64,000 nucleotides of DNA, taken from contig NC_092677.1 of NCBI RefSeq assembly GCF_964355755.1, forward strand, positions 5,585,001-5,649,000. The letters are read 5' to 3'. A model generated the notes under the pieces. It was not told the origin of the DNA. It did not search any database and was given only the letters and a program-made list of their open reading frames with translations. Numbering within the stretch: the stretch's first letter is position 1; every line of letters begins with the position of its first letter. This stretch comes from Antedon mediterranea (lineage: Eukaryota; Echinodermata; Crinoidea; Comatulida; Antedonidae). Of this stretch, positions 11,595-63,278 are shown in pieces. The translations under genes were made by a program, and so were the position numbers.

Positions 11595-14500
11595 ATGGCG
11601 AATAAATCTTACATTTTGCTTGGATTTTTAATTGTGCAAGGTAAGAAAATCCACGTTATTTTAAACGCAACAATGATTCATAAGCCATATCATAATTATT
11701 CAACAGTATATGTAGGCCTACTTTTATACCACTGTCTATACGTGATAATAGGTGGGTACACATGTGTATAACCCTATAGCTATAGATTCTGGTAATTTCA
11801 ATAATGATCGTCTTTCAACTTAAGATTCTGTGAACAGAAAATAAGTACCATGTGAATGGAACAGCAACGTAACTTATTGTTGAAGTAGTTAGCCTAATTT
11901 ACATACACATAGTATCATACTGTTGTTACATTTGCGGCACCTAGAATATTAAGATAAGTTAATAATAATAATAGCATACCTACGATATATACACGGTCTA
12001 CATTGATTATTGTAGTGTGGTAATTCAAGGAATGTAATGTTATAGTAGGTTTGCCTTGGGATTTTACCAATTGAATACTAACAAATCTAGGCCTACTGAG
12101 TAGTGTATCTGTAATGTAAGGCTAAAAGAAGCACTATGACCCCCGAAAACAGCTCTCTGTCTCAACTGGGTAGGCCCTATGGATGTTTTGGAAGAGGTCC
12201 ACCTCCTCGAAGCGATATATGATGTTTATTGTCACTTTCAAAGATTACCTAGGCTGGAGTTTTTATCCAAAGGAATGGATTTTGTCATCTAAGATGTAAA
12301 TGGAAAAATACGTAAACATTTACTCAGGTTATTTTGAGAACTGAGCAAAATCTCAGAGTTATAATTTTTGTTTTGCTAAAAAAGTTTTTTTTTAAATTGG
12401 CCACATGGTTAGTGTAACATAATTTTAACGAACTTAAAGACGTTGTTTTGGGGGTTAGGGAAACATTGCCAATCTGCTGTTATTATCAAATTTATTACAT
12501 TGACATTGGTATTTGTATGTGATGGAAACAGATTAACATTTTATAATAATCTATAGTCCCTCTCATGTATACTTTACTAAACTACAAACCTGCCAAACAT
12601 ACAATGTATACAAAAAAATAGAGATACCGATTCCGGACACGCGCTTCCTGCTGCAGACAAGTTAAAATTATTAGTCATGATAATAAGACAAATTTGGAAA
12701 GGACTTGCTCACAGATGACAAGACAACATCATGACACATAAACATGGTGGATCCTCATTGTATCTATGGTAGAAAACAGGTTCATGTGCTTCAGTCAAAT
12801 TAGGTATTGAAATCATGGTAATGAGTTTACCTGATTTTACACATTTTTTTTTATCTTGAATAAAAAATAATAATTGTAACGCCTAGAAGACCTCTTCTCT
12901 AAATTGTCACCTTCTTTATAACACATTCCACTACCATGACTAATCAAATTAAATGTACGGTATGCTATATATATATATAGATTAGACGGGTTACGTCATT
13001 TCACCTATTCTCACAAGATCTAGAAACTCCTAGGTTTGATACAAAAGAAACCCTCCGAGCAAACCATCGAGGGCAATGAATAGTATCTTAACACTATGTG
13101 AACATTTTGGTAGATCCCGACGTTGCCTCCTTTAATATGACTATATACTAATTGATAAAACCATTGAGGTAAAACATTGTTTAGACAAATATTATTTTTC
13201 CTCCGTAATAAAACAAAATGCTTTCTTTGTCGATATAGGTCTTGGTTGTGCACTTTCACAATCAGTTGATGTTACAGCTAATCAGCGAGTGGTCAAAGGT
13301 CAACGAGTTAGTATCACGTGTCGGATAACCAGTAGAAATCTACAATACGATGTCCGATGGTCACTTGGTGATCAGTTAGTAAGTAGTTAGTTGTCGTGCC
13401 TAATTTACCTGGAAAAACCAAACGTAGTCATCGCTCTCTCCGGGAAGATGATAATGATACAAAAAGTGTCTTGATCAACCCTTCGCCATAATAGATTAAT
13501 CCGTTCAAAGACTACCATCACCACTGTTGGTTTGTGTAATTTAGATGAAATCAATACCAAAAATATTGTCAATGATCTAACCACTTCACAATTTAAAAAT
13601 CAAAGCATATAATAGAAAAATAAAAATAAGGATAAGTAAGGATACAATTATGTGTATTATTAAATTATTATTTTTCTATAAATAGATTACTAACAATACA
13701 ATAGTAACGTTTAAGGAGCGTAGCAACCGTTATCAAGTTATACACCAAAGTATTGGCATTTGGGAATTAGTAATCCATAGTGCTCGACTTGATGATAGTG
13801 GCAAGTGGAGATGTACGAAGATGTCATCAAAACCTCCAATATCCGACTCCATGGAGTTGAGTGTCAATGGTCCAGGAGGTACGTATGTAAATGAAGATGA
13901 GAACAAAATAGATTGTATTCGAATGACTGAGGCAAACCGTGGACATACAATCAGCACAGAACAAGGCTCTCCTCGACCGTAGGTTTGGTTTTAGAACAAG
14001 TCTACTTAACACTGGAGGTCCAGTGTATACTTGCTCGTGAGCACACTTCCACTTTTAAGAACGCAGTGCATGTCTCAGAAAAGATAGGTGTTTACCCCGG
14101 TGTACTTACAGTAGCCAATCATCCCTGTTGGCCGTGGTTCCATGGAGGGTATAATCCGAATTTTCTCAGTTTACAGTTAATCTTGATGACAATTATTATA
14201 ATTAAACTTAAAAGAAATCAAAAGTGTCTCTAAAATGTGTATTCCTGCTACAAAATAAGTATTTATTTGTTCTTTAGTGGCTCCAGTGATCAAGTGGATC
14301 ACACCCACACAGAATGTCAAAGTTGGAGATTACGTTCGCTTAGAGTGCAATGCAACAGGAGATCCATACCCAACAATAATGTGGTACAGTCCATCAAGAC
14401 AAGTCTTGCCAACAAACATTATCTCTTTTACTGGTGAAGTATACCAGTTTGTTGTTGACCGTGTTGACATTATTGACATCATCACCTGCTTTGCCAAAAA

Positions 14501-17500
14501 CACCATTGGAAATATGTCAAAGACTGTTCGTATTAATGTACTGTGTAAGTTTTACTGAATCAATAAAGGATCGTATCAATATTAGCCTACTGCAGTTACT
14601 GCAGTATTTATTTGCTGTAATATTGCAGTTGCTTTGTTTATTTGATAGTTTGGTTTACTTATTATATTAAGATGGTTTTAATTCTTTTTCAGCTAAACCA
14701 TTTCTCAGGTCTAAGGAAAGCAGTCGATTTTTAATACCAACGTGGGCTCTACTGAACACTACCCTCACTTGTAAATTTGGTGGACATCCAAAAGTGACCA
14801 TAACATGGCTTCGATGGAACGGCACTCTATTTGAGTCGGTTCCAATTAAATCTACACAAATATTATCAATAAGTACTATAACCGTTCCTGTCAAAACAGT
14901 GACGGATTTTACCAGATACCAATGCAGAGCTGAAAATCAACTAGGAGTTGCTCAGCACACAATGAGACTTGTTCCGGGTGGTAAGAATTTCACATTTTCT
15001 TTCTTTCGTATAACAACTTTGATAGACTACAGATCGTGTACCAACCGCGATTTGATACTCGTTCCAGTCGGTACCTCTCCTTTGGGTAAACTTATTCCAA
15101 AGATTGAAAGACATTACCAGGTTTTGAAAAACTATTACGTTAATGTGATAAATCAACAGATGAGGAACTTTGTTATAGTATTATATAATATGCCTCTCTG
15201 ATTGAATAAATAGACTTATTTATTATCATTAAATAATTATTATAATATAATAATTATGTAATGATAATAAATAGGGAGAGGGGATGTAAGGACACGAGGA
15301 AGGAAATTACCAAAATGTCAATGATACAACTTTACATATCATTTTTTTAATTTATTTTTATTACATTTTAAGGCTGGAGTATGGATGTATGTATCGGTGT
15401 AACCTTGGAATTTATTATTACTAGCATGAAATAGCATTAATAGCTTTGTTGTTCATTTGTATCATGATAATTATGTTGTCACAAAATTGTTGAAGTGACT
15501 ATTATAAATTATATTTTATTATTATAAGTATTATAATATAATTTTTATGATAGTCACTTTAACAATTTTTTGACAATATAGTTATCATGATACAAACGAA
15601 CAACACAGTTATTAAAGCCATCGTCATAACTGGCAAGGTTACACAGATACATACTACATACTGCAGTCATAAAATGTAATATTTGTTAAAATGATATGTA
15701 TCATTGAAATTCTGGTAATTTCCTTACTCGTGTCCTTACATCCCTCTCTCTTAAGTTGGATAATTATAGACTTTTGTAGATTAATTAGAGATAAAGGATT
15801 TTTGTAGTAGGGGAAGCCACATGCATCCTGTAGAGAATTCTCTTACCCTTCGGATTCTATGAATTGTCAATTCATAGTCTATTTTGGTTTCATAATGGGA
15901 ATCCAGTAGGCTACTTTTAATAGCATTCTTTTGTTTTAACATCGATGCGCGCGTGCATTTTTTAAGTGGAAGTCGAGGACTAAACTTTTCATAAGTTTTG
16001 ACCTTGCCTTTCGCACGAATAAAATACGTTAGTTACACGAAAAATACATATAAATACATCAGTACCCGCTGTATATATTTGACAATATTTATAATTTTGC
16101 ATTTATTACATTGTTGAAAAAAAGTTGTTGCTATCAATGAGTGAGATCAATCTTTCAAAATTCTTCTAAAACAAATTCTAACCATTGTACCATTTGTTGC
16201 GACAAAATTAGTGATGTTGGTTAAAAATCTTAAATCGTTCGTTTTCTTAGAAGCCATTTATTCCTAATCAATATATTATTATTATGTGTATGCTTTTGTT
16301 GAATTTGGTTTTGCATGGCTGTAGCACTGCTGCATTGGTGTTTTATTAAAATATACAATTTGTTCAGATACCAAATGTTATCAGTTCCAACACCCGCAAA
16401 CCAAATATAATTTTAATTAATTTGAAATCTACGGAAACGATCGACTCTTATTGGAGAGCAGGTCGAACGATGGCTAATCCAAAATGCTTAAACGGTCATA
16501 GATGATAAACAGGTACTGAATGAATTATTTTTGATTTTTACATTTTAACTTTTCTATTGTTATGGCCTATAATTTTTGCGCAAATTGTCTTTATTTAGTT
16601 TTTAATTTAGTACAGAAGTTTCATGTAAAATTTATATTTGGTTCATTTCAAACAATTACAAATCTGAAAATTTACAACCATTGCCAACTAAAAGTGAACC
16701 TAAAACGTGCTGTACTAAAATTTACTAACATGTAGGCTAAACCTGTTGTGTTATGCACGCACGTAATTATATATTGTAGTATTAGGCTTATTTATTGTTT
16801 TAACGATTTTATTCGAAATTATAGAATCATAGTATTGAAGTCTATCACAATAATTAAACTAGTCTATTAAAAAATGTACAACTTCCGTTAAAATAGTTCA
16901 ATTGGTTGAATTATGCACGCAATGGGGGTAATTACGGGGTATTAATAACAGCATACAAAAAGAATGAAACACATTATCTACTGTCTTTCGTTTTTTTACA
17001 TTTATTTGTACTTGAAGGTCGCATTGATAAAGCCCTTAATTAGCACTTCCGATTTTTACTTGTTACCGCCTTTTCGTGCCAACTTGTTCAAGAGTAAGAG
17101 ATTGTACTTGCGTATACAAAATTAATAATATTCATAAATGCCTATAATAGGTATCAACCCGGTGAGAGTGCATGTATAACAATGATTTAGAAAACTTGTA
17201 AAGCTGTAGGCCTAAGAAAGTGACCGATCATTTAATTCTTCAAGCATAGAACAGTACTACATTAGTAGAAGTCTCTCCCCCGGGATACTATGTTATTCAG
17301 GGGTACCATTATCTGTTAACACTTTCTCTTGAAATGAACGAGAGAACTCATATGTATTTGTTAACACTACGGCTAACCTCTTTTAAGGAACACTTTTAAT
17401 AATTGGTAACTTGGTTGCTGAAGGTATCCCCTTAATTGTACTGGAATTCCAAATTATTTAAGACCACCAACTTGATTGCTTCAATTAAACATAAGTAATT

Positions 17501-28800: not shown

Positions 28801-29749
28801 ATTTCACTTTCGCTTAAAATTTGTCATTTCTTTGATTTTGTCCAGCTCAATTATGAAGAGGAGAAAATACTCGAAGTACCTATGAAAACATGGAATTTAT
28901 TGCCGTGATTTTGTAACAAACACATAACTTCTTACCAATATTTTATCGAGTATGTATGTGAGTTATACTAGTAGTCGTTATTATTTGTATAAAATTCCAT
29001 TATGTTAATCCATACCGTTAGTGCAGTACAGTAAGTGATTTACCATCATTTCACCCCTTAAGCTCCTTAACAAATATTTTGAAAGTAATAGTCTCGTTTG
29101 GTCCAGGCAATTATCGTCTTTCAAAATATCTGACAAATACGTCTAAGTATATCTAATATTATACTTTTAATAATTAGAAAAAGCTCGAGCGATCATAAAA
29201 TTACAATAAATTTATTTTTTTCTTCATTTAAAATTGTAATATTTTGATTATATGTTTGATTAAAAACCACTATTAAGTCATTATGTAAAAATGCTTGTGC
29301 ATTGAACATGTATGTATTCCAATTTGGTATTCGAATATAACCTCGTTTAATACGGACCGTGAACTTAGTCGTCGTGCAGTGTTATTTTATTTATAGTTAT
29401 GTTATTAAAACGCTTAGCACTCCATTTCTTTTAATTATTAATCAAGCGAGGAATCTGATAACCAAGCAATATGTTACTTTATTTTAAAGCTGGTGCTATT
29501 TAGTATATATTGAACAATCAACGTTTAAGTTTATGCTTAAGTCTAGGCCTAGTAGACAAAACGCAAGTACGGCATTTTGTTTTCAGTTATCCGCTAAAAC
29601 CTCATTCTCTCCGGTGGGCCATTTTGCGGTAGGTAACCGTAGCCTAGGCCATCAACCGCAACAACTCGTTCCGATTTTCTAAGAAGAACCGGATTTGTAT
29701 TTGTATGTATAGGTTTCACACCGTCCTAGTCTAACAATTTACTTGTGAA
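25863..29749. other. intergenic region between the kinase and BACE genes
   Basis: Contains the kinase 3' UTR, a 107-bp minisatellite (26016-26790) and about 2.9 kb of AT-rich sequence with no recognised gene. The minus-strand open frame at 27296-27535 shows no domain. No clear AATAAA follows the kinase stop closely, so the transcript end is unresolved. Confidence 0.5.
26016..26790. repeat. minisatellite, about 107-bp unit, about seven copies
   Basis: The start CAGCTCAGATTACATTTTTT recurs near 26016, 26125, 26232, 26338, 26446, 26553, 26660 and 26766 (last one partial). Each unit includes TTGGTTTTGGTAATACTGCC, TATTACGTCGATAGGGGGCT and TATCCATGCACTA. Units differ by single bases and 2-4 base indels, indicating recent expansion. 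It starts about 150 bp after the kinase stop and may lie in the 3' UTR. Confidence 0.92.
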
Positions 29750-39632
<9,883 letters not shown>

Positions 39633-44068: not shown

Positions 44069-44839
44069 TAAGCAGCAACAGATTTTTGTGTACGATTTGG
44101 AGATATATATGTACTAATTTCATTTAAAAATGCATTTAAATTAGCTTTAGATCTTAGATTAGGATTAATTAATGGGGACATCCCTACGTGGAATCGTTGG
44201 AAAAAACATAATTAGCCTATATATAGTTCCAGTTGCCTGTCGAAGTTTCGTATTGCTGTAGGCTACGTGTAGCCTAGCTGGGCCTAGTATTAGGATAGGC
44301 CTTAGGCGTTTTAGACTTGCTAGACCTAGTATTGTTTGGTCGGTTTTTTTTTTACATAATTAACACTACACTACAGTAGGTGCGTTTATAAAATCCATAT
44401 AAATAATAATATTTAATATCTTTGTTAAAAACCAAATGTTACTGTTTTAATCAATGTGAATCAGATGTAGGCCTTGGCTAGGCCTACCTTTTATTTGATT
44501 CAATAGTCAGCTGTGTGACTTAGGCAATTAAGGAGAGGAGACTCATGAATTTTTAAATAAAATAAGAAATACATTTTTATAGTATATTTTTTAACCCATT
44601 TGTTACAAATTCTTTCTCTTTTATTGCTACTTTTCTTTTCTAAAATCATCAGTGTTAATTTTAATCTGAGGAGCTGATGCTATTAAATTTTGTTACTTAA
44701 AGGTAGCACTTTTTGTATATAGATGATATCGACAGCCTCATAACAAAAGTGTCTAAGTCATAATTTTTTTTTCTGCCTAACTCACTGCTTATATCAATAT
44801 ACTATATTTGTTGTGTTTCTGCCTAAGTCAGCATAATAA

Positions 44840-46130
44840 TAGTACAGGGATTTTTTTCGAAAAATGGCCAAATTTTGACCTTTTTATTTTTGGACATAAA
44901 TTGTTACTATAGGTCTATAACATGATTGTAACGCAACATATGCGCATATATAGTAATATTATTGCATAATAACAGTATTTTAAAAAGTGCATTTTTTGGG
45001 CATTTTTTGCCAAATTTCGACCTTTTTATTTTTGGACATAAATGGTTACTATTACTATAGGTCTATAAGATGATTGTAACGCAATATATGCGCATATATA
45101 GCAATATTATTGCATATTAACAGTATTTAAAAAATTGCGTTTGGCCATTTTCTGAAAAAATCCCTGTACTATAGTACATGGATTTTTTCGAAAAATTGCC
45201 AAATTTCGACCTTTTTATTTTTGCACATAAATGGTTACTATAGGTCTATAACATAATTGTAACGCAATATATGCGCATATATAGCAATATTATTGCATAA
45301 TAACAGTATTTTAAAAGGTGCGTTTTTTGGCCATTTTATTGCATAATAAACATGGGAGGAGACGAATAATGGATTCTGCGAATGTCAATTGTCATATAGT
45401 AACCAGTTTTGACATAAATGGTTACTATAGCATAATAATAATCATGCGCAGAGTCGTGTAATGGGTTCTGCGCATGTTAATTGTGCTATAGTAACCAGTT
45501 TTATCGAAAAATAAATAGGTCGAAAATTGGCCATTTTTTGAAAAAATCCATTATAGTACAGGGAAATTTTCGAAAAATGGTCGATTTTCGACCCTTTTAT
45601 TTTTTGACATAAATGGTTACTATTGCATAATAAACATGTGCGGAGACGAATAATGGGTTCTGCGCATGTCAATTGTGCTATAGTAACCAGTTTTGACATA
45701 AATGGTTACTATAGCATAATAAACATGCGCAGAGTCATCTAATGGGTTCTGCGCATGTTAATTGTGCTATAGTAACCAGTTTTTTCGAAAAATACAAAGG
45801 TCGAAAATTTGCCATTTTTTGAAAAACTCCCTGTACTATAGTACAGGGAAATTTTCGAAAAATGGTCGATTTTCGACCCTTTTATTTTTTTACAAAAATG
45901 GTTACTATTGCATAATAAACATGCGCGGAGACGAATAATGGGCTCTGCGCATGTCAATTGTGCTATAGTAACCAGTTTTGACATAAATGGTTACTATAGC
46001 ATAATAAACATGCGCAGAGTCATCTGGTTCTGCGCATGTCAATTGTGCTATAGTAACCAGTTTTATCGAAAAATTAAAATGCTATAGCATAATAAACATG
46101 CGCAGAACCCATTATTCGTGCATTTAAATG
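44840..46130. repeat. tandem array of foldback/MITE units
   Basis: At least three units are bounded by GTACAGGGA-TTTTTTCGAAAAATGG at one end and its complement (CCATTTTTTGAAAA, TCCCTGTACTATAGTAC) at the other, with boundaries near 45168, 45560 and 45840. Interiors alternate TGGTTACTAT, GCATAATAA, TGCGCAGA and TCTGCGCATGT. A reversed fragment lies at about 41080-41270, on the far side of the 2.6 kb transposon. Confidence 0.75.
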
Positions 46131-46424
46131 TGCATTTTATATTGCGTTATAATCATCTTAAATAAAATATTAGATCTATACTGTAGAACATGGACATTTT
46201 TGGAAAGTGGACAAATATCGACTCTTTAAATTGATGTATTCAGTGCAGATCACATTTTCTAATTCTGCGCATGCTATTTTGCAAATAACATGCGCAGCCC
46301 ACATTACGTAATTCTGCGCATGTCATTCTGTCAAAAAAATGTATATGTTTTTTATGTTTTAAGAGAAAAATTTTTAAAGCAAGATATTTCTGACTAATAT
46401 TCTTTTTACTAACTATACATTTTC

Positions 46425-49400
46425 TTACAGCATAGTTTTCACTCCATAATTGCTTTTGACGGTCAGCGTGGCAGATCCTTTGAATAGTTTCATCTGAAAC
46501 GCCCTCATAACTTTACACACGTACTTGCCATCATCTGCCTTGCTGACGTCATTAATGAACAGAGTACATCTTCCATTATCTTCCAACTCCGTGTAATACT
46601 TGCTGCCTGGTTTAGTGACGTCAGTTGTCGAGGCTATGACGGTGCCGTTAAATTTACCATGCTGGTTGTTTCGGTACCACATAACTCCGGTAATTTCCTC
46701 ACCCGGTGGTAGGATTCTGCACTCAATATAGGTACTTCTGTCCCCAACCATTGCCGTCTGATTATATACATGAACTGTTAGGTTACCTGAAAAATAGAAC
46801 CTTTATTCAGTAAGGTAGACACAATTGTATGCAGTTCTGTTGTAATTAATTGTCAGTAGTCAGTCCTATGACAAACAGTATGTAAAATATGCATTTGTCG
46901 TCAAGCTCTGGAGAATCAATTTTTCAATCTTTTTTTGCGACTATGAGACTGTATTTTGTATGTACACATACCTTCTATTAAACAAGAGACAGAGGAAAGG
47001 GACTAATAATACTGTGTGTCTACATGAAAAAAATAGTCTAAGTTTAACTGAATATGTTTAATTCACGTGTAGACTAGGCCTACACGTGACAAACATAGTC
47101 CTTAATAATATGTGTCTCCTAAATGTAAACATATTAATTTGTATTTACAGTTAACAGTAAGAGTCCCCATTCCACTTGCTGCTGCACCGCTGTCGTACTC
47201 TTCCTCCTCACTGTTTACAAAACAAGCATACTTCCCGCCGTCATCAACTTTAACATCCCGGATGATAAGTAAGCCCCTCCCTTTCTCTTCGTCTATAATT
47301 GCCTCGTACTTGGGGGTCCTTTGAACGTAGTCATCGTTGCTAGATGCAATAGCCTCTGTATAATTGTCGAATTTTCGAAACCAAGTGGTGGTCCTGATAG
47401 CGCTTGTTTTGGGGAATATTTCACAGACGATTGAACTACTTTCAGATGCTTCTTCTACCTGCACATTGCGAACATGTGCCACAAGTTTCGCTGAAACAGA
47501 ATTCATACATTTAATATTTTAATTTGTACTAACAATTAAGTTTTTGAGAAAACATTGGTTTAGAAAACATTGGTTTAGAAAACGTACAGCCCAAATCTTC
47601 AACGAAAATAAAAAGAAGATTGGACAATCTTCTCATTCACTCCATCACAAAAACCCTGAAAAATAGTAGCTTTTTTTTAACAGACTCGGCGCATTAGATC
47701 GGATTGATCTTCGTAACACATACATTATTTTAAGATTCCCGAACAATTAAACTGCGTCTAAAGACTGAACTAAAAGATTATGATAAAAAGGATCGTAAAG
47801 AGTACAACCACAAGCCACCACCAGGTGACTACTGCCCTGTAGCAACTTCTACTTACGTTCGACAGAGAGCATAAAGCTTTTTACATGAGTTTCGTCATTT
47901 TTCATCAGAACTGTCAGTTTGTAGAGACCAGCATCATACGGGATCAAGTCATCAATTGTCAATTTGAAAGAACCCGGCTCTCCAAATTCCACAGCATATC
48001 GATTTAAATCTGGACAAAATAAAATCGGTTTAGAAAGTGTTTGTGTACTACACTTTACTTTACGCATTAGGCATTTCTTTAGAAACGTTTCAAATGCATC
48101 ATTCCTCCACTTCCGTTTATTTTTTCCATCAGTACAATATGCAATGTGTAAAGCTCTGTCTACACTATCAAAGTTTATGTGAAAAAACATGTAATAATAA
48201 TGATGATAACATAATGCTGTCATATCACTACCATATTTGGGCATATCACTACCATATTTGGCCACTTTACACTTTTTTTGTCAAATAAGTTTGATAGTGT
48301 AGACAGAGCTTTAAGAAACATCCATTTTACTGAATGATGGAAAACAACAACACTGATGAACAAATTCCTTTTTATTGTACTAAACAATCATTATCTAATT
48401 TTATTTCAAATATTTTTAAACATAAGTGGATTATCATACCTTTATTATCAGATTTCTTCAATGTACCTGACTGATAAAAATATGAAAATTAATTTTAAAC
48501 GTGATTTACTGTGCAAATCTTAGACAAACCTATTGTAGAGCCTGTTTCCTACTTCCCGAATTTATTTGCTCAAATCAATGACCAACATGTATTATAATTT
48601 CACCCACTTTTAGTGAAGCGAAACCAACTAGGAATGCTCGATTAGTGCGAATACATTCGCTTAGTGGAAAAAAGGTTTTAAGTTGAATCTTTATGAAGCA
48701 ATTTAGCAATATCATTATTTCATTTTCTTTTTATTGAGTAAAATGTGTTAATAGCTAAGGAAATAATGCACTACATAAAAATTACTGCAAGACACTTTTT
48801 GACAGAAAGTAAAGAACACAAAATGCATTATGTAGTTTTATCAGGGAAGAAATGAACTTACACAATTTTACTATGTTTTTTTTTAAAAGATATTTTAAAC
48901 ATTATGTAATATAATAAGAAAGTGTATATCGTGATGTAATATAAACAAATATGCTAAGGCGGAAAATACATAACAAAATATTGAAACTGTAATCAATGAT
49001 ATAGAAACTGAAATTTCATTATAATATTTAGATTAAATTATGTTTCGATAACACAGTATTAAAATCATAAAGATAATAGACGTCGATTATAATTACACTT
49101 ACTGTTTCGTATGGAATGTAATCATAGCCCTGCTGTTTATGTGCACTGGTGCTTTGATTATTGTCCTAAAACAATTGTACAGAAATATAAAAGTATGAAA
49201 AACAAGTGGTAAAACAAGGCAATATACCGACGACCGATCAACCGACCGACCGACATAGTGAGCTCTGCACACGACTAAAAAACTAAAAAGGTCCCGGGTA
49301 ATGCTTGGTTCCCACTATAGACGCAACACAATGCAACGTAAGTGATTTGACCAATCACAAGCAAAGGATTTCGTTGCCTCTACATCCCGCATTGCGTTTC

Positions 49401-50722
49401 TAGTGGGAACCGAACTTAAGGGATCATCTGGAGGATTGCTTTCCCTTACTCATGACAGCCTTGTCCATGGCGGGTCTAACCCTGTGTAAATGTGGCGTGA
49501 ACATTGACGGTACATGTACATAAACTTAGTGAAATAAAAATATATAACATAATAATAATAATCAAAAGGCTTGTGACGAAATGTAAGTAATTTGACCAAT
49601 CCGAAAGCGATGGATTATTCAAACTGTTGATTGAACGTCCTTGCTGTGCGTCTCTAGTGGGAACCAAGCTTAACTATGCATATAAATTAAATCTCATTTG
49701 AGGCTTAGGAAGTGGAGTAAAAACAGCCCTTTGCGCCAAAGTATGTTTTGTATTGCACCCTAACACTTGGTCAGGATTGAACCCTTGTTCTTAGGATTAG
49801 AAGGCAAGCAAAAACTCCAGTACTAATTTTTAATGCACAAAAAACAAAACTGTATATTTCCTGCAAAGTTTTAACATAAACAAATGAACAATATTTAAAA
49901 TATTGGATTATCCTTATTATTTGTTAAATCTATACTTTCAATTTGAACATTTTATTGATATAAAACCAGGCGATACATACCTTGATTTCGTCATAATTAT
50001 TATCCAGAATGAAGTAAGGTCTGACTAAATCATTGCTTGATCCATCCATTGGTCCAGAGTAAACGTTTCCTGACCCAATGGCTTTCATACGAGTTCTGAA
50101 ATAAAAAAAAAAGTTTTTTAAAAGTGTTCATGCTAACATTGTGCATTACTTTGTGAAAATCTCAAAGACAACATGTCTTACCGTTTAGCTTCTTTATTTG
50201 TTGTGATAAGGCCTACATTAAAAAAGAATGTATGAAAGTGATTTATTTATAATTGTATATACTAAAACTGGATGTTGAATAGACATATTTAAAAAAGGAA
50301 ATACATATTAATCGTTTAAAAAAATTAATAATGCGATTATTCAAAACTAGAATTATTTTCGAATATCCAGAGTCCAGCTATTTCTATGTGGAACGTCAAA
50401 CATGTACTCAATATTATCTTAGTTGTGTTAGGGTTAAGAATGTGTACGATTTCCAGAAATTGTTGATGTTGTCATCGATTATGATTGGTCAATTCTTTTG
50501 ATTTTGCACTAACTTATAAGACTCAAACTATACCTGTATTAAATGTGACAATGTGATCCGTTTTGTCCTCTTCTTTGTTGATTTTGAACCACGAGATACT
50601 GGCAATCTTGGCATTCATAGGTTCATAGGTCAACACAATGTTTGCTGAAGCACCTTCGTTGAATTCGAAGTCATCGTCAACAAATAGTTTGAACGGCAAT
50701 ATTTGTTTCTTAAATGCTGCAC
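46425..50722 (-). CDS. soluble multi-Ig exons (three Ig domains), alternative 3' part of the CD2/SLAM-like locus or an overlapping gene
   Basis: Exons in transcript order: 50722-50534, 48009-47857, 47490-47149, 46786-46425. The first two form one V-like Ig that has the SISWFK tryptophan but neither canonical cysteine. The third is an Ig with IVCEIF and GKYACF, the fourth an Ig with YIECRI and GKYVCKV. The frame ends at TAA 46427-46425. All junctions are phase 1. The first exon begins after an acceptor, not a start codon, and no signal-peptide exon was found close by. It joins in frame to the upstream Ig exon (51971-51657), giving a 574-aa secreted protein with five Ig domains in the order V-C2-V-C2-C2, recalling the tandem layout of vertebrate Ly9. 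Alternatively a separate first exon was missed. A weak donor (GTAAGA) overlaps the stop codon, so a further exon is not excluded. Confidence 0.7.
48151..48312. mobile_element. MITE with about 23-bp inverted repeats
   Basis: Left AAGCTCTGTCTACACTATCA and right TGATAGTGTAGACAGAGCTT are perfect complements. The interior repeats CATATCACTACCATATTTGG twice. TAA-like duplications flank it. It lies between the last tail exon and the next Ig exon of the CD2/SLAM-like locus. Confidence 0.85.
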
Positions 50723-52903
50723 CTACAGGTATAAACAATAATAATACACAGTAAGTAATAATTAATAATGTCACTAATCAAACAACGTTAAGCTACATTC
50801 ACACGGTTCCATGTTGTTAGATAATGGAAAATAAATCATGTAAGGAGATAATTGAAGAGCCATTTTCCATTCCGTGTAAATGTAGCTTATAATACCACAC
50901 AACTAATCAACGAAATGTGATAAACAACATGTTTATTATTTATTGGAGGCCTATACATATTTCCTTTTTTAAAATTTCATTTAGGCCTACTTTTGTTCTA
51001 AAATTGGAAATTGTTTCATTAGATTATATTGGTCCTTTTAACTTTTGCTATTGGTCTTAGTTTCTTCTTACCTTTGAACATGAAACCCAAAGACATTCCA
51101 ATGATTATAACTACAACGAACACAGATATCCAAATCAAGATAAAGGTCTTCTTCCTATCCTTTTTATCAGAATCTATTAAAAAATAAAAATATATGTATA
51201 ATTTTGTACTATTTAATCATGGTGTTTTTGATGAGATATTTTAGTAATTTTATTTATACCAATGTATATACTGTGTATACTAAACTATACTGTAAAAGTT
51301 TGAAAATTAGCTAATATGCATATTTTACTTTTTTTATTTACTATAATTACAGGTGTAAGTAAATTCCAGAAAATAATGAAAAAGGTGAGGGTAATATAGA
51401 AAGATAATGGATATAATGTATAATATATTTGTGATATATGACGAACGAATAAAAGTTGTAGTTTACACCACAAAAGAGAGAGAATAAAAAAAAGTTTATT
51501 TGTAATGCAGTAACGAATATTGAAAAGAAGAAAAACCCAGAATGAATAGAAAGGAGAAACATATAAAGTGACAGTGCTGACAATTAATCATAGGGCTAAT
51601 AGGCCTAATATAAAAAAAAATAAAATAAGATACTATAATTCTCCGTTTATACTTACTAGATGAGTCCAGTCCTTCTATATTGCTCGTCTGGTTCATAATA
51701 CCTATACCTGTTTCAACACTAATACGACAGGAATAGTTTCCAACATCATCAGTTTCAGATAAAGTATGAATAATGAGCTTAATCCTAGGTTTTTCTTCAT
51801 GTTTCACAGTGTATTTGGACAAAGTGGTATCTAGTATATTTTCATTACGATACCATGTTACGTTTGGTTTCGTTTTGGGATTTATTTCAGACCACTGGCA
51901 GTAAAATATGTTGACATTTACATCGTTTCCAATTTTCTCGGTGGATGCAGTGAGAGTTGGCGTATCCATATCTTTAACAAAAATATCGACAAAATGACAT
52001 AGTAATAATTATTGTTTTTAAAGGAAGAAATCATTATTAATTAATACCTGCTAAATAGCCATTTAGCTGAGTCTATGTTTGGTATGAAATAGAACGGCAG
52101 TTGCAAGAAATAAACGTATAAACTTGATTAGTAGCCAGAGCTTTATGTTTATAATATAATATATATATAATGCACTGTATTATTATACGGAAATATAAAA
52201 TAACTCACAATATACATCCAGGTGATATGTCGTAATGACATCATTTTCCCCGCCACTTTCAACAACTTGAACAGTGTAATGTCCTGTATCCTCTCTGCTT
52301 ACATTTTTTATCCTCAAATCTCCATAGGGATCAACGATCGAAAATTTTGGAGATTTAGTTGTATTACCAGAATTAATGATAATTTGTTTAATATTTATTT
52401 TTTCATCTTTGAACCAACTTATCGATTGTATTTTGTCATTTCGAATACCACCTCCAGCAGGAATTGTGATTATTTCACCTTCAATTATTGACAGTTCTGA
52501 CTGTGTGGCTAGAAAAAAACAACAAAAAAACACAATACAATTTTACCATCTCATTTAGTCGTGTTCGTACTGTAACCTAAACGTAAAGCTAAGTAATACC
52601 ATACTTGTAGGCAGGTGTTTTATATGTACACAGATAATGATTATTAACAGAACAATAAGAGAAAACCCTTTTACTTATACTTGGTATAGTTGGGCTCTTT
52701 ATGCTTGTGATGTCTGATGTCTCAATTTTTAAGAGATTTTTAAGTATTTAATTAGTCCTATGACACTTGCAAGTGTTGCAGTATTGGAATAAGCAAGTCT
52801 ATCATCGGAACAATAACCACTGATGTTTATTAAACTTACCGATGGCATTTTCAATAAAAAACAGTAGGACGTATACGGACAGGAACACAAATTGTGCCAT
52901 CAT
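48372..52903 (-). CDS. CD2/SLAM-like Ig receptor, membrane form with tyrosine-rich tail
   Basis: Exons: 52903-52840, 52508-52209, 51971-51657, 51173-51072, 50212-50182, 50095-49981, 49165-49103, 48470-48372; 1089 nt, 362 aa. Signal peptide 1-21 (ATGATG start). Ig1 (22-121) has SISWFK and EDTGHYTVQV but no canonical Ig cysteines. Ig2 (122-226) has FYCQW, VTWYR and GNYSCRI. Membrane helix about 237-257 after a KKDRKK stretch. The tail holds Y298FIL, Y305DEI, Y323DYI and Y328ET, possible SH2-docking sites. A disulfide-free V-like domain, then a C2-like domain, a helix and a tyrosine tail is the CD2/SLAM plan; orthology is not shown. The last exon is the least certain: it reads to TAA at 48374-48372 with AATAAA nearby, or splices at GTATGA (48439). 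A 5' UTR intron probably ends just before the ATG. Confidence 0.8.
49228..49280 (-). repeat. fragment of the GTCGG-microsatellite repeat
   Basis: CCGACCGACCGACATAGTGA followed by CTGCACACGACTAA is the complement of one end of the elements at 7265-8065 and 8123-8915. Confidence 0.6.
49303..49420. mobile_element. Harbinger-like MITE
   Basis: GCTTGGTTCCCACTATAGACG at the left and TTTCTAGTGGGAACCGAACTT at the right are inverted repeats, with GACCAATCACAAGCAAAGGA inside. About 118 bp. Same family as 18104-18287. Confidence 0.7.
49560..49673. mobile_element. 5'-degenerate Harbinger-like MITE
   Basis: The interior TTTGACCAATCCGAAAGCGATGG and the right end TCTCTAGTGGGAACCAAGCTT match the family; the left end is decayed. 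Confidence 0.6.
50789..50890. mobile_element. short MITE next to an Ig exon
   Basis: TTAAGCTACATTCACACGG at the left pairs with CCGTGTAAATGTAGCTTATAA at the right, and TTCCAT..AATGGAAAA pairs inside. About 100 bp, located 70 bp upstream (in transcript sense) of the exon at 50722. Confidence 0.7.
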
Positions 52904-54261: not shown

Positions 54262-56305
54262 CTATTTAACCTTTTGACTACTACTATCATCAAGTAAAGC
54301 TATGCTCTCTGCATTACACATTTCTCTTTTTAGCTTAAATTCTTTCTTAGAAATCGGCTGCATTCCAATAGTATACTCCTTTGTTTCTGAACCATAACTG
54401 TAAACACACACTATTCCTTTTGCTTCTTCTTTCCCTTCTTTTATACTGTAGTAAGCTAGGTCAGATTCTTCTACATTCACTGCACCTAGTGTGTTAAACT
54501 GACACCAGGTTTTACAACCATCTTTATTCAAATAAAGTGTAAGCTCCTTATTTGTCTCATTTCCATGACTTGCCATTACTATTTGGTAGAACTCATCTGT
54601 TATTCTGTCTTTGTTGGTAAGCGTACAATACCACCCTTGATAATAATAAGAAAATATCATTATATAACTAGAATTGAGTTCGTCACTTTGACCAATTATA
54701 GATGATCATTTTATAATTTTACTTACATTAAGTTTAAAAAAACGATGCATGTACAGTACGTTAAAATACGACCACAAAATGTTGATGTATGCCATACTAT
54801 GAGATGACCTGATGCAAGTTTGTGTATAGTGAATTTAATTGATATTTGATGATGAATTATGGAGATATAATTGATAGTGTAATTTCACAAAATGGAGCAT
54901 AAATGACGTCATGGATGAGTGATCACGCTGAAAATACAGTATTTGAAAGATATTGTGAAATTTTGGTGATTATTGACATTTAAATCTTTGATTTAATTGT
55001 TACACAAAATACAGAGAAATAAAGAATAAAGATTTTATACATTAACAATAGGTGATCATTTTATTCTAACTGATCACCTAATAATTATGAAAATGCAAAA
55101 ACAAATCATTTCAAATGTCACAGGAAAGGAGTACCTGGCATTCTGGATTAGCTTCCAACATTGTTTTATTCCCAAAATCATGTATGAAATGCTTCATCAC
55201 TGTATACATGAAAACGTTGCTTAGAGTCCTCCAATGAACAGCTGATGTTAACTTTGTGCATACTCAACAGCCTGATAAAAAATCATATTATAGGCCAAAG
55301 TGGAATTTAAAGCTAACTAACATATGTGCTTACTGTGGGTTAAAAAAGTTGCTATATTAATACAAATCTAATCTTAAATAATCTATTATTTTCAAGATAG
55401 GCTTCTTAATCATACTTGTGTGTGTCCTCCTAAAGTATCATCAGGTGGTTGAACAGTGGTTACAATATTCCAGGTGTCATCATCATTAGTACTTGTTATC
55501 AGAAATACTTTTTCTGCGAAGCAATTTACATTAATTTATAATCATTTTAAATCAACTATTCATTAAACAGTATGTTGATTTATTGTTTGAAGGTTTGCAT
55601 GGCGAAATCAAATGTTGATATAAAGTTTGCGGTACACCACATGTATTAGTTCTGAAAAGAACTGTTGAGTTTCTCGACGTTTCGATCAATATACTTCGAT
55701 CGTCCTCGAGGAGGACGTGGTGAACCGCAAACTTTATATCAACAGTATGTTGATTATTTCTACTATTCAATGAATTATTAACCCAAACTTAGTATCTTAA
55801 TATTTTGATTATTCCAAAAAAACCAACAAAGAAAAACATTTTATGAATGTTTATGAAATAACTTACTTTCTATACTCTCAACATTTGTCCAACTCCAAAC
55901 TCCTGCAACAATCAAAAGCCTTGAATTTAAGCATGTACCATCACCAAGATCTAAAATAACATTTGATTGTTAGTATTGATTACCCTTTACAATAAATGTT
56001 TCATTATAAGAAAACGGAAATACTTAAATAAGAAGAAGACATATTTAAAAATTATTTTAAAGCAATTTAAATAAAAGACAAAAAATGTGTTATATTTAAT
56101 TAAATTACATTGTAAAAAAGTAATAACATAGACTTACTCCGACTAACTCCTGGAAAGCCTTTCAAATCAAATTGTACATCTTCTGGTTCTGTCCAGTTGG
56201 CACCATTATCACAGGTTTTCATCATTATTATATTCCTCTCTTTTGTGATATTATTTTGTGTAAAACACATTCAAATCAATTTTCCCTTTTTCTAATTTGT
56301 CATAA
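54262..56305 (-). pseudogene. partial, inactivated copy of the sialidase-like propeller
   Basis: Five exon-like blocks (56305-56138, 55950-55867, 55513-55416, 55271-55135, 54635-54262) match exons 5-9 of the intact gene at 58720-57020 in order, spacing and intron sequence. Damage: the first block has an early in-frame TAG and another stop; the fourth has a small deletion and an in-frame TGA; the fifth has an insertion of about eight bases after ACAAAGACAG that shifts frame. Ig exons and the FRRP exon have no counterpart here. Some blocks (55950-55867, 55513-55416) remain open, and the last block is open only from inside. It is best read as a decayed tandem duplicate. Confidence 0.85.
55581..55742. 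mobile_element. insertion with 13-bp target duplication and hammerhead-like core
   Basis: CAGTATGTTGATT occurs at 55568-55580 and again at 55743-55755. The intron of the intact paralogue (about 58134-58160) lacks the insert, so it acts as an empty site. The insert holds long inverted arms (GTTGATATAAAGTTTGCGGT at 55614 and its complement ending at 55743) and the GTTTCTCGACGTTTCGATCA motif shared with 3420-3512. Confidence 0.8.
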
Positions 56306-56544
56306 CTGTTTTTAGAACATTATTCTTTTTTGTTAATATGTCACTTTTTGAAAAGATACATTGTATATTAAAAAAATACCAAGAAAATCTAACTAAAAAA
56401 ATATCATAGAATATATTTCCTAAATACTGCTAATATCTAATATAGCTAAGCATTATTTATACTATTTATAATTTGTACATTCTATGCAACACATTCTATT
56501 ACAACGTATATCCAATATTTTTATATATATCCAAAGGAAAATTA

Positions 56545-56690
56545 CTGAAAAAAAATCAGTGGCTGGATCTCAATGGAGATATAAAAAAAATCGACAAGCT
56601 AAATCAAAACGACAAAATTAAATAGCCAACAAACCTAGCAGTGCTTTTGGGCAACACTAGCCCTTCATCAGTGCAAGTATATTTTTATAC
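56545..56690 (-). repeat. hammerhead-type repeat, degenerate copy
   Basis: Complement of the 61.49-61.69 kb element: AGTGGCTGGATCTCAATGGA, AGCTAAATCAAAACGA, then the reversed core CAACACTAGCCCTTCATCAG. On its own sense strand the core reads CTGATGA, GGGC..GCCC, then AAAAGCAC, so the conserved GAAA is mutated. Confidence 0.7.
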
Positions 56691-57019
56691 ATGTACGCCT
56701 AATCGTAACATTATTATTATTAGTCTCTATTTTAGCATACGCTATCCTGTAAAAATAAACTTGTAGAAATTATTAATAATGATCGTAAGTTAAAATTTAG
56801 TTAATATCGTTTTAGTTTTATGCATATGGTGTTCTAATCTAATTAGAAATTTACATAAATCCTAATTGCATAATATCTCTATTGGAATTGAACGGTGTAG
56901 TTTTCATTCAATTCTGCCATTTGTACACAAGACATTCAATCAGTAAAAACATGTCTTTAAATGTGTGTAACACCACACATACTTTCCAGGGAACAAATTA
57001 TTAAACACTTTGGCTACAG

Positions 57020-60000
57020 TTACTTTAAATAATCATCAAATGAAGCCATGCTCTCTGCTTGAACAATTTCTCTCTTTTTTATTATAATTTCTTGTTTGGA
57101 AATTAACTGCATTCCAATATTATACCCCTTTGTTTCTGAACCATAACTGTAAACACACACTATTCCTTCTGCTTCTTTTTTCCCTTCTTTTACACTGTAG
57201 TAAGCTAGGTCAGATTCTTCTGCATTCACTGCACCTAGTGTATTAAACTGAGACCAGGTTTTACAACCATCTTTACTTAGGTGAAGTGTAAGATCATTTG
57301 TTTTATTTCCATGACTTGCTATTGCTATTTGGTAGAAATCATCTGTTTTTGTTGGTAAACGTACGATACCACCCTTGATAATAAAATAATTTAAATGCAA
57401 TAAAATAATCGGTCATCAAATTACTGTACTGTAATATTAAAAGGCAAATATAGTTTAACCAACTCAATGAGGCAGAACATGTACATGTGTTGCAGCATTT
57501 AAAGATTATATAATTTACAAACGGTTAATATTTAAGAGTGTTATGGTATATTTCCATAATTACTGTATTGTACAAATCAATCAAAACCATTTGTTTTATA
57601 CAACATTTAAGTAGATATTGAAAAGAGTACTGTATTCACATTGTATTAATGACAGGTAGACGTGCTATAATATAGATGAAACTAAAGAAACTGACAGTAC
57701 CAACCTGGCATTCTGGATTTAGCTTTAACATGGCATCCTCATCCCTGACATCAAATGATTTAAATCCTTTATCACTGTATACATGGAAACGCTGCTTAGA
57801 ATTCTCTAATGAACAGCTGATGTAAACTCTGTTATCTGCATATTCAACAACCTATAAACAAATCACATTATGACAAATAGCCATTTAGAGGTAACTAATA
57901 ATAACAAATGCTGCTATGTTACTAATCTAATCTGAAATAAAATCCACAATTTTCAAGTTAGGCTACTTAATCATACTTGTGTGTGTTCTCCTAAAGTAGC
58001 TGCTGGTGGTTTAACATCAGTTACAATATCCCAGGTGTCACCATTATTAGTACTTGTTATCACAACTAGGCTTTCTGCAAAGCAATTTAAATTTACATTC
58101 ATTTATAATCATTTTAAATCAACTGTTCATTAAACAGTATGTTGGATATTTCTACTATTCAATGAATCATTAACCCAAACTTAGTACTGTATATTAATAT
58201 TTTGATTATTCCAAAACAAAAAAAAACAACAAAGAAACAACATTTATGAATGTTTATGAAATAATTTACTTTCTATACGCTCAACATTTGTCCAACTCCA
58301 AACTCCTGCAACAATTAAAAGCCCTAAATTTAAGCATGCACCATCACCAAGACCTAAAAAATATACAATATTGATTACGTTTTATAATAAATGTTTCATT
58401 ATAAGAAAACGGAAATAAGTAAAGAAAACATATACAGTATTTAAAAATTATTTTAAAACAATTTAAATAAAAGACAAAAAATGTGTTATTTTTACTGAAA
58501 TTACATTGTAAAAAGTAATAACATAGACTTACTCAGACTAACTCCTGGAAAGCCTTTCAAATCAAGTTGTACATCTTCTGGTCCTGTCCAGTTGGCACCA
58601 TTATCATCAGATTTCATCCTTATTATCTTCCTCTCTTTTGTGTTGTTATCTTGTCTAACACACATTAGAATCAATTTTCCCATTTTTTCATTTGTCATAA
58701 GTGGTACTAGATTCTGAAAACTGTGTTTAGAACATTATTCTTTTTGGCTAATATGTCACTTTTTAAAAGATACTTTGTATGGTAATAAAATACCAAGAAA
58801 ATCTCAAACAAAACTTAAAAAATAAATAAATGAAAAAAACATAAATTATTTCAGTTCTTGTTCTATGGTCATATCTCAATTTAATACCTTGTATCATTTT
58901 CATATAAAATCAATTTTGTTTTTTCTTCCCATTCAATCAAACTCTTTCCATTCACTCTTCCTCTTCTCATTATTACATCTGAGTTATTTTGCTCAACAAA
59001 GACAAGAACATGAGAATTTATAATGACTACTGCAGGACGTCTATAAAATAAGAGAAAAACAAATACTGTACATCTAAATGCTATAGATAAAAAGATAAAA
59101 AGAAGAATTTGTATAGTTTCCAAATCAAATAGACAAACCTATAGGCCTACTGTATTTGAAAGGCTCTAACTCTAACCCATTTTAATACTTTGTACAGTTT
59201 CAAAGGATGTACAAGCTATTAAATATCATATATTACAGACAATATTTACCTGAAATTGCTACAGGGTTCACTATCAAATGCTGCAGTTAAATAACCTATA
59301 AAAATATATATACAGATATGAATGTATAGGCTACACGACAACTACTGCAACTTCGCAAAAGAAACAACACCTACAGCAAGAGCAGCAACAAACCCAATAA
59401 TAATAATAATTAATTTAGAAAAAAGTAAGATATTTGTAAGATTATTTTCGGAAAAGTATTATTTATCATACTGCCATAGTTATCGTATAATATATTTGAT
59501 AAACTAGCCATGTAGGTGGAAAGATATGATATATTTTTTTAAATAATAATATTCTATTAAACTACTTACATTGTACATGCAAGTGTGCTGATTTTTTTAT
59601 TCCTTTTAATTTTCTTGTGATTTTATCTTTTCTTGTCTTAAGTCCACACATGTACTCTCCAGCATCAGTCAATGACACTTTCTCAAACTTTAAGCTTGTT
59701 TCATTATACTTATAAATTACTTTACATCTTTCAGGTACTTTTTCTTGTTCTACCTTCTTCTGTTGAGATGTATCAGAAGTAAATATCACTTTCATCCCAT
59801 CAGCAGTCTTCTTATACCAATTGACAGCTTTCACTCCTTCTTTAATTGCATACTTGCAAGTTAAAACTGCTTTATCTCCTTGTGTCACAAGACAATCATT
59901 CATTACCATGGCTAAAATATAAATATATTTTAGATGAAATTTAGTTCACAATAAATATACAAACATGGATAAATACTATAGTTAGTTTTTTATCAACACC

Positions 60001-60541
60001 GAAACCAGTATTAGAAATACTGTGCAAATAATTTCAATGTAAATGTTTTTTATATATTTACAAATAACAATAAATTTACTTACAGTATAGCCAAAATTTG
60101 GGAGTTTTTTTTTCTTAATTATAATTTTAACATCCAAATATTTTGAATCTGACAAGTTTTATTTTAGCTTTCATAGCTAAAATAAACATAAAGATATTTT
60201 TTTTTAGTGAAAAGAACAATGGTAATAAATATCCTTGTTATACTTACAGCCTTCAATAACTTCCAACCTGCTTGTTGATGAATAAGTTACACTATCTTTT
60301 TCTTCTTTCACAAATCCGCAACGGTAGTCACCAGTATCAGAAATGTCAACGTTTGAAATTGTAAGAAAATATGTCTGATTTTTCTTACTATATTCAAACT
60401 TAAATCTGTTGGTGTCAGCAATTTTCTTCCAATCGTCAGATTCAAATTTATATAAGCTAAATTCCTCAATTTGTTTTGAAATACAAAAATTAATCCTAGC
60501 AGTGCTTCCTGCAACAGAGTATACAGTATTTGAAACTGGAT
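57020..60541 (-). CDS. Ig-Ig-sialidase-like propeller protein (5' end missing)
   Basis: Exons: 60541-60248, 59911-59570, 59295-59250, 59040-58888, 58720-58533, 58353-58270, 58074-57977, 57851-57705, 57373-57020; 1706 nt, about 568 aa after a phase-1 start, so a signal-peptide exon lies upstream. Ig1 has NFCIS and DYRCGF; Ig2 has LTCKY, VNWYK and EYMCGL. The rest resembles animal/bacterial exo-sialidases: SNFRRPAVV in the place of the F/YRIP motif, Asp boxes SDDNGANW (58611-58588), STNNGDTW (58054-58031) and SKDGCKTW (57277-57254), GLLIVAG, and NPECQ holding the conserved Glu. The usual second arginine (NAR) reads SCS, the third appears as Lys (GNKTND), and the Glu after the C-terminal strand reads Ser (CVYSYG). 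It may bind glycans without cleaving them. No membrane helix was seen. Sialidase-family assignment is confident; loss of activity is inferred. Confidence 0.83.
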
Positions 60542-62877
60542 CTGAAATTTAAAAAAAAAGATTGATAATTAATATAGTAAAAATATAACCCATTAAGTCA
60601 ACAATTAAAAACATTTCTAATGGGGTCCAAAAAGATTAAAAGGATTAATAATTCAGCTAGACTCTATCTTTTTAAATCAGTAGTTGGAAATGAACTGATC
60701 AATAAAAACATATTGTGTATGGAACACATATGCGAAGGTGAAATAAAAAATTATACAATATAGTTAAATGTTGTACACTTTATAAATGCTTATAATTGTT
60801 GCGCAACATTTTCAAAACGGGTATAAAACAAGTAACACAGCAAAATCACAATAGGTGTACCAAATAAGCAATTAACAAGAATAAATAGATTGAAAAAAAC
60901 AATAAGATGAGATAGAAGAAGGATGTTTAGAGTGTTTCAAATCAAAAGCATGCAACATAGAACATTTGTTGCAAAACGTGACTTTTTAAAGAAAGTAATT
61001 TCAGGTGCAAAACTCAACTTTTTTAAGAAAGTGTTTCAATCACAGCACAGTTTTAACTATGAATACTACACTTACTTTACAATCAATCCATGATGACTAT
61101 TTTAGTCTTTAGAAAAAAAAACAATAGTTATTCAAAGAAACTCAAGGGTGATTAGGAAAAAAACCCAAAAATTCAAAATTCCAGAATCTGCTTAGAATAG
61201 ACTAAACAGGCTGAGTTTGGTGGTTCATGGCTAATACATGGTAGCCATTGAAGTATATAATTACTTGACTCAACAATTCAGCCCTCAACATATTTCTGGA
61301 AAAATATACTTTGTATTTAATCTAGGTGAGGTGTATTAAAAATCATGCAATTTACAGTATAACAAATATAATATATATATATATAAATATAATACTCTTA
61401 TTCAGATAATACTCTTATTCAGACTCCACCCTGGCTCCCTTTGTTATATTTCTTTTATTCCTGTCCACCCAGGCAGCACTTGCCAGCTTTATACTATGAC
61501 GTTATCCAAATTCCTTCACTTGCACTGATGAAGGGCTAGTGTTGCCCGAAAGCTCTGCTAACTTTTCTGGCTGTTTACTTTATCGTTTTGATTTAGCTTT
61601 TCGCTTTTTATTTTTGTATCTCCATTGAGATCCAGCCACTGATACCCACAGCATTGTCATTTTTTTCAGTAATTTGCCTTTGGATTTATAATATATATAT
61701 ATATATACATACAGGATAACAAATATAATATATATATATATAAATATGTAATATCAAGAGTAGTGGTGATTATATAATCTAGAATTAATATAGTAATTTC
61801 AGAAGATGCAACCATGTGTAACATATTCACAAACTAAAACATTTTCTGGTTAAAGCATTGCATAGTTAAAGCATTGCATGCTTAAAGAAAGGCAACATAT
61901 GGAAATTCCCAACAAAAAGAAAAACATTTTAGCACTTTATTCTAAATTCCAAAAAAAAAAGAGCAAAAAAAAGAAATTAAAATTGTACATTCTCATCTTT
62001 AAAAAAATGCAAGCACTACAGCAGTTTTATGACAAAAATTAGGAAAATTATATGTTCTTGGCATTGATAATAAAAACATAGCATTTTTTACTGTCCTAAC
62101 GATTATGTAAATGCAGCCTTCATCATACATTGTTACTACCTGTCTTCATCTTGAGCTGGTAAATACAACAGTAATAGCAGAAGTGGAGAAAGGCAGGAAA
62201 CGTTCACGATCTATTTGCTCATAAAACACACTCAGCATTTGAATAACCTTTTTTATGTTGCTCTTTCAACAGAATTTATCATAATTTCCCATCACTTGGA
62301 ACACTAATAACAGTATAATTAGCTTGATGTGGCAGAATTATATTAAACCAATGACATCCTCTGGTTGGCAGAAACTGTAATATATGTGACAAATTGGTTG
62401 ACAATCTTTAGTGAAAAAACGTTTCCTTCCGCAGTTTTTGGGACCTCTTAAATGGGAATTGGTTACTGTCTCCCTTTGGAATTGTTTTCCTACAGTATCT
62501 TTATCCGTCTGGCAACTTTGATTGCTAAAACTAATTTTCTTAATCTTCTGGTATTTATTTGTTATTAAGTACTTTGAGGCTTTTAACATTATGCGCTACA
62601 TAATCTAGAATTATTATTTTTTTTGTTGGGAACCAATAATTACTACTTTACAATAAACAAAATTACTATCCTTATAAAGAGCAATTGAAAAAAACATATT
62701 TTTATTCGAAATTTGAACTTTAATTCATACAATTTACATAACATGCAAAATACAACACTAAATTAAAACAAGACAAATTTATAATCACTCAAATATCTAG
62801 TAGGTTAATGAGACGTAATCTCTTAAATACATGATGAGCATCTAATTTATGGATCCACAGTAACAATGAGACTAAAA
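60542..62877. other. non-coding interval upstream of the Ig-sialidase-like exons
   Basis: Contains a hammerhead-type repeat (about 61490-61690) between ATATAT tracts, and AT-rich sequence. No signal-peptide exon for the Ig-sialidase-like gene was identified. The open frame at 62338-62589 minus shows no domain. Confidence 0.5.
61490..61690 (+). repeat. hammerhead-type repeat, best-preserved copy
   Basis: Core: GCA (61522-61524), CTGATGA (61525-61531), one unpaired A, GGGC (61533-61536), loop, GCCC (61544-61547), GAAA (61548-61551), palindromic AGCT (61551-61554), C55, then TGC pairing with GCA. This is the type I hammerhead order with a minimal palindromic stem III. It is followed by GTTTTGATTTAGCTTTTCGC and TATCTCCATTGAGATCCAGC. 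Copies lie at 56545-56690 and 40225-40345. Similar cores are known in Penelope-like retroelements. Confidence 0.6.
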
Positions 62878-63278
62878 TCAAAAAAGACCCTGTGCATACA
62901 AACTGTAATGATCATCTGGCATTTGTATATAAATTTCAACTAATAACATTCCACAACAACTGTATATTTTCTGTCTTCCTTCAACTTCTACTTCACATAT
63001 GTATATTCCTTCATCTTCAGATTTAATGTTTCTGATTTCAAGACACACCTTATTCTTATTAATATATGCACATTGACAGGGTAATCCTAAATTGGTTTTT
63101 AAATTTTCAGGTGAGTTTATTGATGTCAGGAAGGTCTTTGCTTCTCCTCCAGCATGCTTATACCACTTGATATCGGATATTACAGCTGAATCATCAAAGT
63201 ATGTTATATTTAAAAACAATTCAACATATTTTCATCCCTCATTAGTAGTAACATCAGGAATCTCCATTTTGAGAGCAG
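62878..63278 (-). pseudogene. Ig-domain exon with an in-frame stop
   Basis: After a TTTTTATAG acceptor (63280) the frame reads ALKMEIPDVTTNEG, then TGA (63234-63232), then continues in the same frame through ISDIKWYK, VCLEIRN and EDEGIYICEVEV, ending at TGA 62880-62878. It has Ig strand C and F features, while the strand B cysteine is not visible in this frame. Two compensating one-base shifts around the stop would restore a cysteine-containing strand. It may be a decayed Ig exon, the last exon of a gene extending past 64 kb, or a sequence error. Confidence 0.5.

Follow-up and report, generated by a model that had tools for sequence, protein, structure and literature searches.

Exon anatomy of the locus

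The window in this study, a stretch of 64,000 nucleotides (G000:C8:5585001-5649000; GC content 31%) from a genome of 354 Mb in 18 contigs, carried a series of immunoglobulin (Ig) exons on its minus strand, which an earlier note had described as one Ig locus with interleaved membrane-form and soluble-form exons. All 12 exon coordinates were recomputed from the sequence and were exactly as first given, with AG/GT at every internal exon end of the locus. Exons E1, E2, E3, TM and T5-T8 are referred to here as gene A, and exons I3a, I3b, I4 and I5 as gene B.

E1, 52903-52840, minus strand: signal-peptide exon MMAQFVFLSVYVLLFFIENAI; ATG directly after an acceptor; donor TCG/gtaagt; layout matching three paralogues
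E2, 52508-52209, minus strand: V-type Ig domain without canonical cysteines; 300 nt; family profile 127.8 bits
E3, 51971-51657, minus strand: second Ig domain, cysteines present; 315 nt; phase 1 at its end; family profile 118.4 bits
TM exon, 51173-51072, minus strand: membrane helix; 102 nt; phase 1-1; donor AAG/gtaaga
Inverted-repeat (MITE-like) element, 50889-50789, minus strand: between the TM exon and I3a; read directly in the sequence
Signal-peptide-like stretch LVTLLIITYCVLLLFIPV(G), 50777-50723, minus strand: open in the I3a frame; lacks an ATG; GTG at 50774-50772, stop at 50780-50778
I3a, 50722-50534, minus strand: first half of the third (V-type) Ig domain; 189 nt; weakest donor of the locus, weak acceptor
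T5, 50212-50182, minus strand: cytoplasmic tail exon
T6, 50095-49981, minus strand: tail exon with motifs YFIL and YDEI
T7, 49165-49103, minus strand: tail exon with motif YDYI
T8, 48470-48372, minus strand: last tail exon, probably coding only to 48441, the rest doubtful; AATAAA at 48376
I3b, 48009-47857, minus strand: second half of the third Ig domain; 153 nt
I4, 47490-47149, minus strand: fourth Ig domain (V-set); 342 nt
I5, 46786-46425, minus strand: fifth Ig domain (V-set); stop within donor-like GCT/gtaaga

The interleaving of membrane and tail exons with an intron-split third Ig domain was real at the exon level, and the Ig exons were more than a chance finding. The Pfam Ig gathering score was reached by E2, E3, I4 and I5. 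Joined, I3a and I3b scored 25.2 bits, 0.8 bits short of the Pfam cut-off of 26, and because the joined halves spanned nearly the whole V-set profile (positions 7-105 of 109), I3 reads as one domain in two exons. Its type was V, at 20.6 bits against the family V profile compared with 4.1 bits against the C profile. The TM helix had a hydropathy of 2.95, and the frame used in T6 and T7 was the best-scoring coding frame. The last 69 nt of T8, past 48441, scored as non-coding and began at a donor-like AAG/gtatga, so the C-terminus of the 362-aa protein modeled from gene A is uncertain.

Splice sites were scored with a matrix trained on family sites, with a generic prior from general knowledge. The donor-like site that overlaps the I5 stop scored 7.7, inside the family range, and for this reason the label “soluble”, which the earlier note had given to the product ending in I5, depends on the absence of a further exon. 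No TM exon in phase 2 worth keeping was found downstream of I5 in a search down to 39640.

Inverted and tandem repeat arrays (ACTGGTTACTATAGCACAATT...) lay directly 3' of I5, at window positions 44800-46300, and palindromic elements also occurred at 48351-48115 and 51415-51191. A search for duplication remnants inside the locus showed nothing but inverted repeats and, within an intron, a single short direct repeat. A DNA search of the genome, which skips common words, yielded no second copy of the MITE-like element, and the genome protein searches revealed no processed copy keeping splice junctions.

The next gene upstream, also on the minus strand (window 54262-63231), had V-type Ig exons at 63231-62878, 60548-60204 and 59945-59562, followed by a sialidase-like Asp-box exon at 58638-58573 and perhaps also at 57412-57020 and 54705-54262. 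Locus L050 showed a similar order, its Asp-box exon matching BNR_2 at E 1.1e-4, under the curated cut-off. With these exon orders, tandem copies of an Ig-sialidase fusion are possible. Many further V-set exons, with dozens of weak I5 matches, were found at G000:C8:0.55-1.7 Mb and 4.7-5.4 Mb, and some of those around 5.121-5.141 Mb look like near-identical tandem arrays. By eye only, plus-strand open reading frames resembled a receptor tyrosine kinase with Ig and EGF-like parts (window 4250-25627) and a beta-secretase-like aspartic protease with a C-terminal helix (window 29735-39632). Cellulose synthase, a mark of tunicates, had no match in the genome when searched with a bacterial model.

Gene A within a tandem receptor family

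A genome search with gene A led to a tandem cluster on the opposite strand (C8:5798756-5855023; L042-L047) holding about ten V-C units, to which the V and C exons of A were up to 65% identical (127.8 and 118.4 bits). A phase-1 donor and a signal-peptide exon with an acceptor directly before the ATG were shared by the window and three paralogues; in the legible family starts, the acceptor of a presumed 5' UTR intron stood directly or three bases before the ATG. Gene A also shared the cluster plan of a separate TM exon after the C domain, followed by a tail with tyrosine motifs. A is an ordinary type I receptor: its signal peptide is followed by a disulphide-free V domain, another Ig domain, one helix and a YxxI/L tail. 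The N-terminal V domains of the cluster were mostly without canonical cysteines, and its members included 2-Ig, 4-Ig-like and 5-Ig forms.

The tail of A differs from those of its kin, because four small exons encode it and no homologue was found elsewhere. All four legible paralogue tails contained an ITIM, while the A tail held no canonical ITIM, only YFIL, YDEI and YDYI; the ITIM is common in the cluster but does not define homology. If A instead ended early, with the TM exon read through to GKKKLRPIAKVKRTNII and cut at the AATAAA at 50944 or 50937, then A and B would be plain tandem genes and T5-T8 would go unused. Two paralogue units with TM exons and no tail exon before the next gene would be in keeping with such an end. 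However, the TM donor was strong (9.1), T5-T7 had good donors and a coding score, and legible paralogue tails sit in a separate exon, making an early end of A very improbable. In L043-L044 (cl 11185-16109, where cl is the position along L042-L047 joined), two receptor units had TM exons with no tail exon found nearby, only some 200 bases separating the end of the first of these TM exons from the next signal peptide; these units may have just a short tail, or a tail exon farther away may serve both.

The first cluster unit ran from a signal peptide (cl 2219) through V, C, V', C and C domains to a TM exon (7970) and a tail (8639). This 5-Ig paralogue (cl 2219-8845) lacked a TM exon between Ig 2 and Ig 3 and is therefore a plain receptor, not a switch. 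The V'-C-C triad also occurred by itself, at L049, where it had a signal peptide of its own and a candidate TM exon; V-C units and triads thus occur both apart and fused in the family. Given such modularity, a 5-Ig protein is the kind of product that the window could plausibly encode, and two separate genes are just as plausible. The introns between the TM and tail exons of the paralogues showed no interleaved Ig exon.

Reading frame, splice sites and putative start of gene B

The earlier note reported that E3, the second Ig domain, ends in phase 1 and joins in frame either to the helix exon or to the third Ig exon, and both joins were reproduced, giving open models of 1089 nt (362 aa) through TM and 1725 nt (574 aa) through I3a. 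It also drew attention to both models summing to whole codons, which is true and does not discriminate between readings. Six exons (E2, E3, TM, I3a, I3b and I4) consist of whole codons and are phase 1-1, and all 128 of the 128 chains made by keeping or dropping these six and ending in T5-T8 or I5 were in frame, including chains that place the helix mid-way among Ig domains. Because any mix of 1-1 exons stays in frame, the frame fit is no evidence for a switch. Joining E1 to I3a was also in frame and would yield a secreted 3-Ig product fitting as well as the 5-Ig one, a product absent from the readings offered in the earlier note.

That note left two readings, a switch or two interdigitated genes; for the switch, the sequence offered nothing more than frame, which does not discriminate here. 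As one gene, the locus would use shared exons E1-E3 (or E1) followed by TM and T5-T8, or by I3a, I3b, I4 and I5, to make a 2-Ig receptor or a secreted protein with five (or three) Ig domains. Beyond the automatic frame fit and the lack of a TM exon downstream of I5, three observations argue for this: between the upstream gene and I3a, no signal-peptide exon other than E1 was both well formed and equipped with a good donor, the reading frames of B were intact, and the paralogue at cl 2219-8845 fuses a V-C unit to a V'-C-C triad in a 5-Ig receptor. That paralogue, however, has no TM exon between Ig 2 and 3, the triad elsewhere forms a separate gene that has a signal peptide of its own, and interleaved soluble exons were seen in no other family member. 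We considered a membrane/soluble switch possible but on the improbable side. Its fullest form, in which one reciprocally interleaved pre-mRNA would give a 2-Ig signaling receptor or a longer secreted decoy of three or five Ig domains whose binding domains differ in part, seemed doubtful.

GC3 was 0.45 in B (343 codons) vs 0.32 in A (295 codons), a gap of z about 3.4 in a simple two-proportion estimate, with the other Ig exons measured ranging from 0.19 to 0.42; this counts against a single gene, although GC3 can vary among exons of one gene. The genome protein searches found no close paralogue of B. Every other V-type domain examined (nine cluster V exons, E2, the triad V', I4 and I5) was one open exon, and the nearest relatives of I3 had one open frame across the position of the I3a/I3b junction. 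I3 alone was split, and its dividing intron contained the tail exons of A.

The I3a acceptor scored 4.8, less than all 26 family acceptors (5.3-15.9), and its donor scored -0.1, less than all 20 family donors (6.5-12.5). These weak sites are moderate evidence, because the family sites trained the matrix and because the acceptors of T7 and I4, at the same locus, scored under that of I3a. They speak for two genes and against a switch; weak splice sites are also common in regulated exons, and in that respect they count for a switch.

Upstream of the acceptor at 50722, the frame remained open for 18 codons, reading LVTLLIITYCVLLLFIPV and then GAAFKKQ. The 12-residue hydropathy of this stretch was 3.02, the top value among the 23 acceptors tested, with an equal or higher value in 8 of 981 pyrimidine-preceded AG-by-frame cases. 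By its residues, the stretch resembles a signal peptide ending just before a V domain. The earlier note had named a separate promoter and signal-peptide exon feeding only 50722, with no junction from 51657, as what would refute its reading; of this, a hydrophobic, in-frame stretch was present just 5' of I3a, without an ATG; a GTG stood in its place, with a stop two codons earlier, and the inverted-repeat element ended about ten bases upstream of that stop. An upstream exon ending in A and joined at 50773 would create an ATG, as in the family UTR introns. The acceptor at 50773 was weak, at 0.5, a score exceeded by 26% of AGs. The likeness to a signal peptide may be due to chance, because T-rich introns often translate to hydrophobic residues. 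Either the start of B is unusual, or it has been lost, or the likeness arose by chance. An alternative signal-peptide exon in the introns of A was rejected, the candidates having only poor donors.

The missing ATG, the weak donor and acceptor of I3a, the split V exon and the lack of a TM or tail exon are also what would be expected if B were a relic of a neighboring Ig gene, its start codon lost and its V exon broken by the tail of A, with only A functional. Against this, the four exons of B were open over 343 codons with no stop or frameshift, and the splice sites of I3b, I4 and I5 were mostly sound. Because the frames are intact, B is unlikely to be long dead, and we regarded the relic explanation as unlikely, noting that it overlaps in part with a reading of two interleaved genes.

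A proposed pair of interleaved genes, and known systems

The reading we favored, at close to an even chance, was that two neighboring same-strand Ig genes are interleaved and that B is possibly damaged; a tangle of two genes was at least as likely as a switch within one. Under the favored reading, A and B would be neighbors in one tandem Ig-receptor region that are now interlaced on one strand, with B encoding three V-type domains and no anchor. The original first exon of B probably began near 50773 and would have encoded the signal peptide and the first V half, so that the “acceptor” at 50722 would be a cryptic site within it. A local rearrangement, such as duplication with reciprocal loss, may have put the tail exons of A into the V exon of B, and B, lacking an ATG and having a weak new donor, may now be damaged. 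Any joining of E3 to I3a would then represent read-through splicing. We infer the separate transcription of A and B, the rearrangement and the start of B.

The interleaving of two genes is also suggested by gene A keeping the full paralogue plan (UTR acceptor by E1, V, C, TM and tyrosine tail), by the I3 relatives that are open across the junction, and by the independent triad gene at L049 with its own signal peptide, together with the weak I3a sites, the GC3 difference and the hydrophobic stretch described above. On the other side, B is without its own ATG, the 50773 acceptor is weak and E1 is the sole good start exon found upstream.

Animal genes seldom have coding exons that are reciprocally interleaved on one strand. 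If the switch is true, the locus would show an immune-type receptor gaining a decoy with extra domains; if two genes are tangled, it would be a caught intermediate of the rearrangement that builds the multi-Ig receptors of the region. In both cases, it cautions that in-frame phase-1 exons are no proof of alternative splicing.

CEACAM- and CD2-type proteins carry an N-terminal V domain without the usual disulphide, followed by a disulphide-bearing domain, and gene A likewise places a V domain without canonical cysteines before a cysteine-bearing Ig domain. The best PDB sequence matches of A were CEACAM6 (E 1.6e-9) and CEA (2.8e-9), with CD2 weaker; the similarity was low and mainly over the V domain. 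The membrane and secreted splice forms of Ig-superfamily receptors, such as those of PD-L1 and Dscam, share nearly all ectodomain exons. Like the soluble forms of those receptors, the product ending in I5 would lack the TM exon; unlike them, it would gain three domains, from exons straddling the tail exons.

Same-strand gene overlaps in Metazoa have been described as rare and under-represented, in nested, embedded and partial classes (PMC2330155). Two overlapping genes here would resemble those cases, and their rarity counts against the favored reading; literature searches brought up no description of coding exons interleaved reciprocally. A closer precedent, and one in favor of two genes, is fuhc of Botryllus schlosseri, first read as one gene spliced to secreted and membrane forms (PMC3691228; reviewed in PMC12065747). 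Northern blots and RNA-seq demonstrated two genes 227 bp apart with rare chimeric transcripts, and the supposed alternative exon started 19 bp within the true exon (PMC3691228). As with fuhc-sec and fuhc-tm, a membrane form and a putatively secreted form of the Ig superfamily are neighbors on one strand at the present locus; the Botryllus genes, however, lie end to end with the secreted form first, whereas here the exons interleave, and fuhc-sec has EGF domains. By analogy, a one-gene reading of the window could repeat the fuhc misreading, the displacement here being about 50 bases (50773 to 50722).
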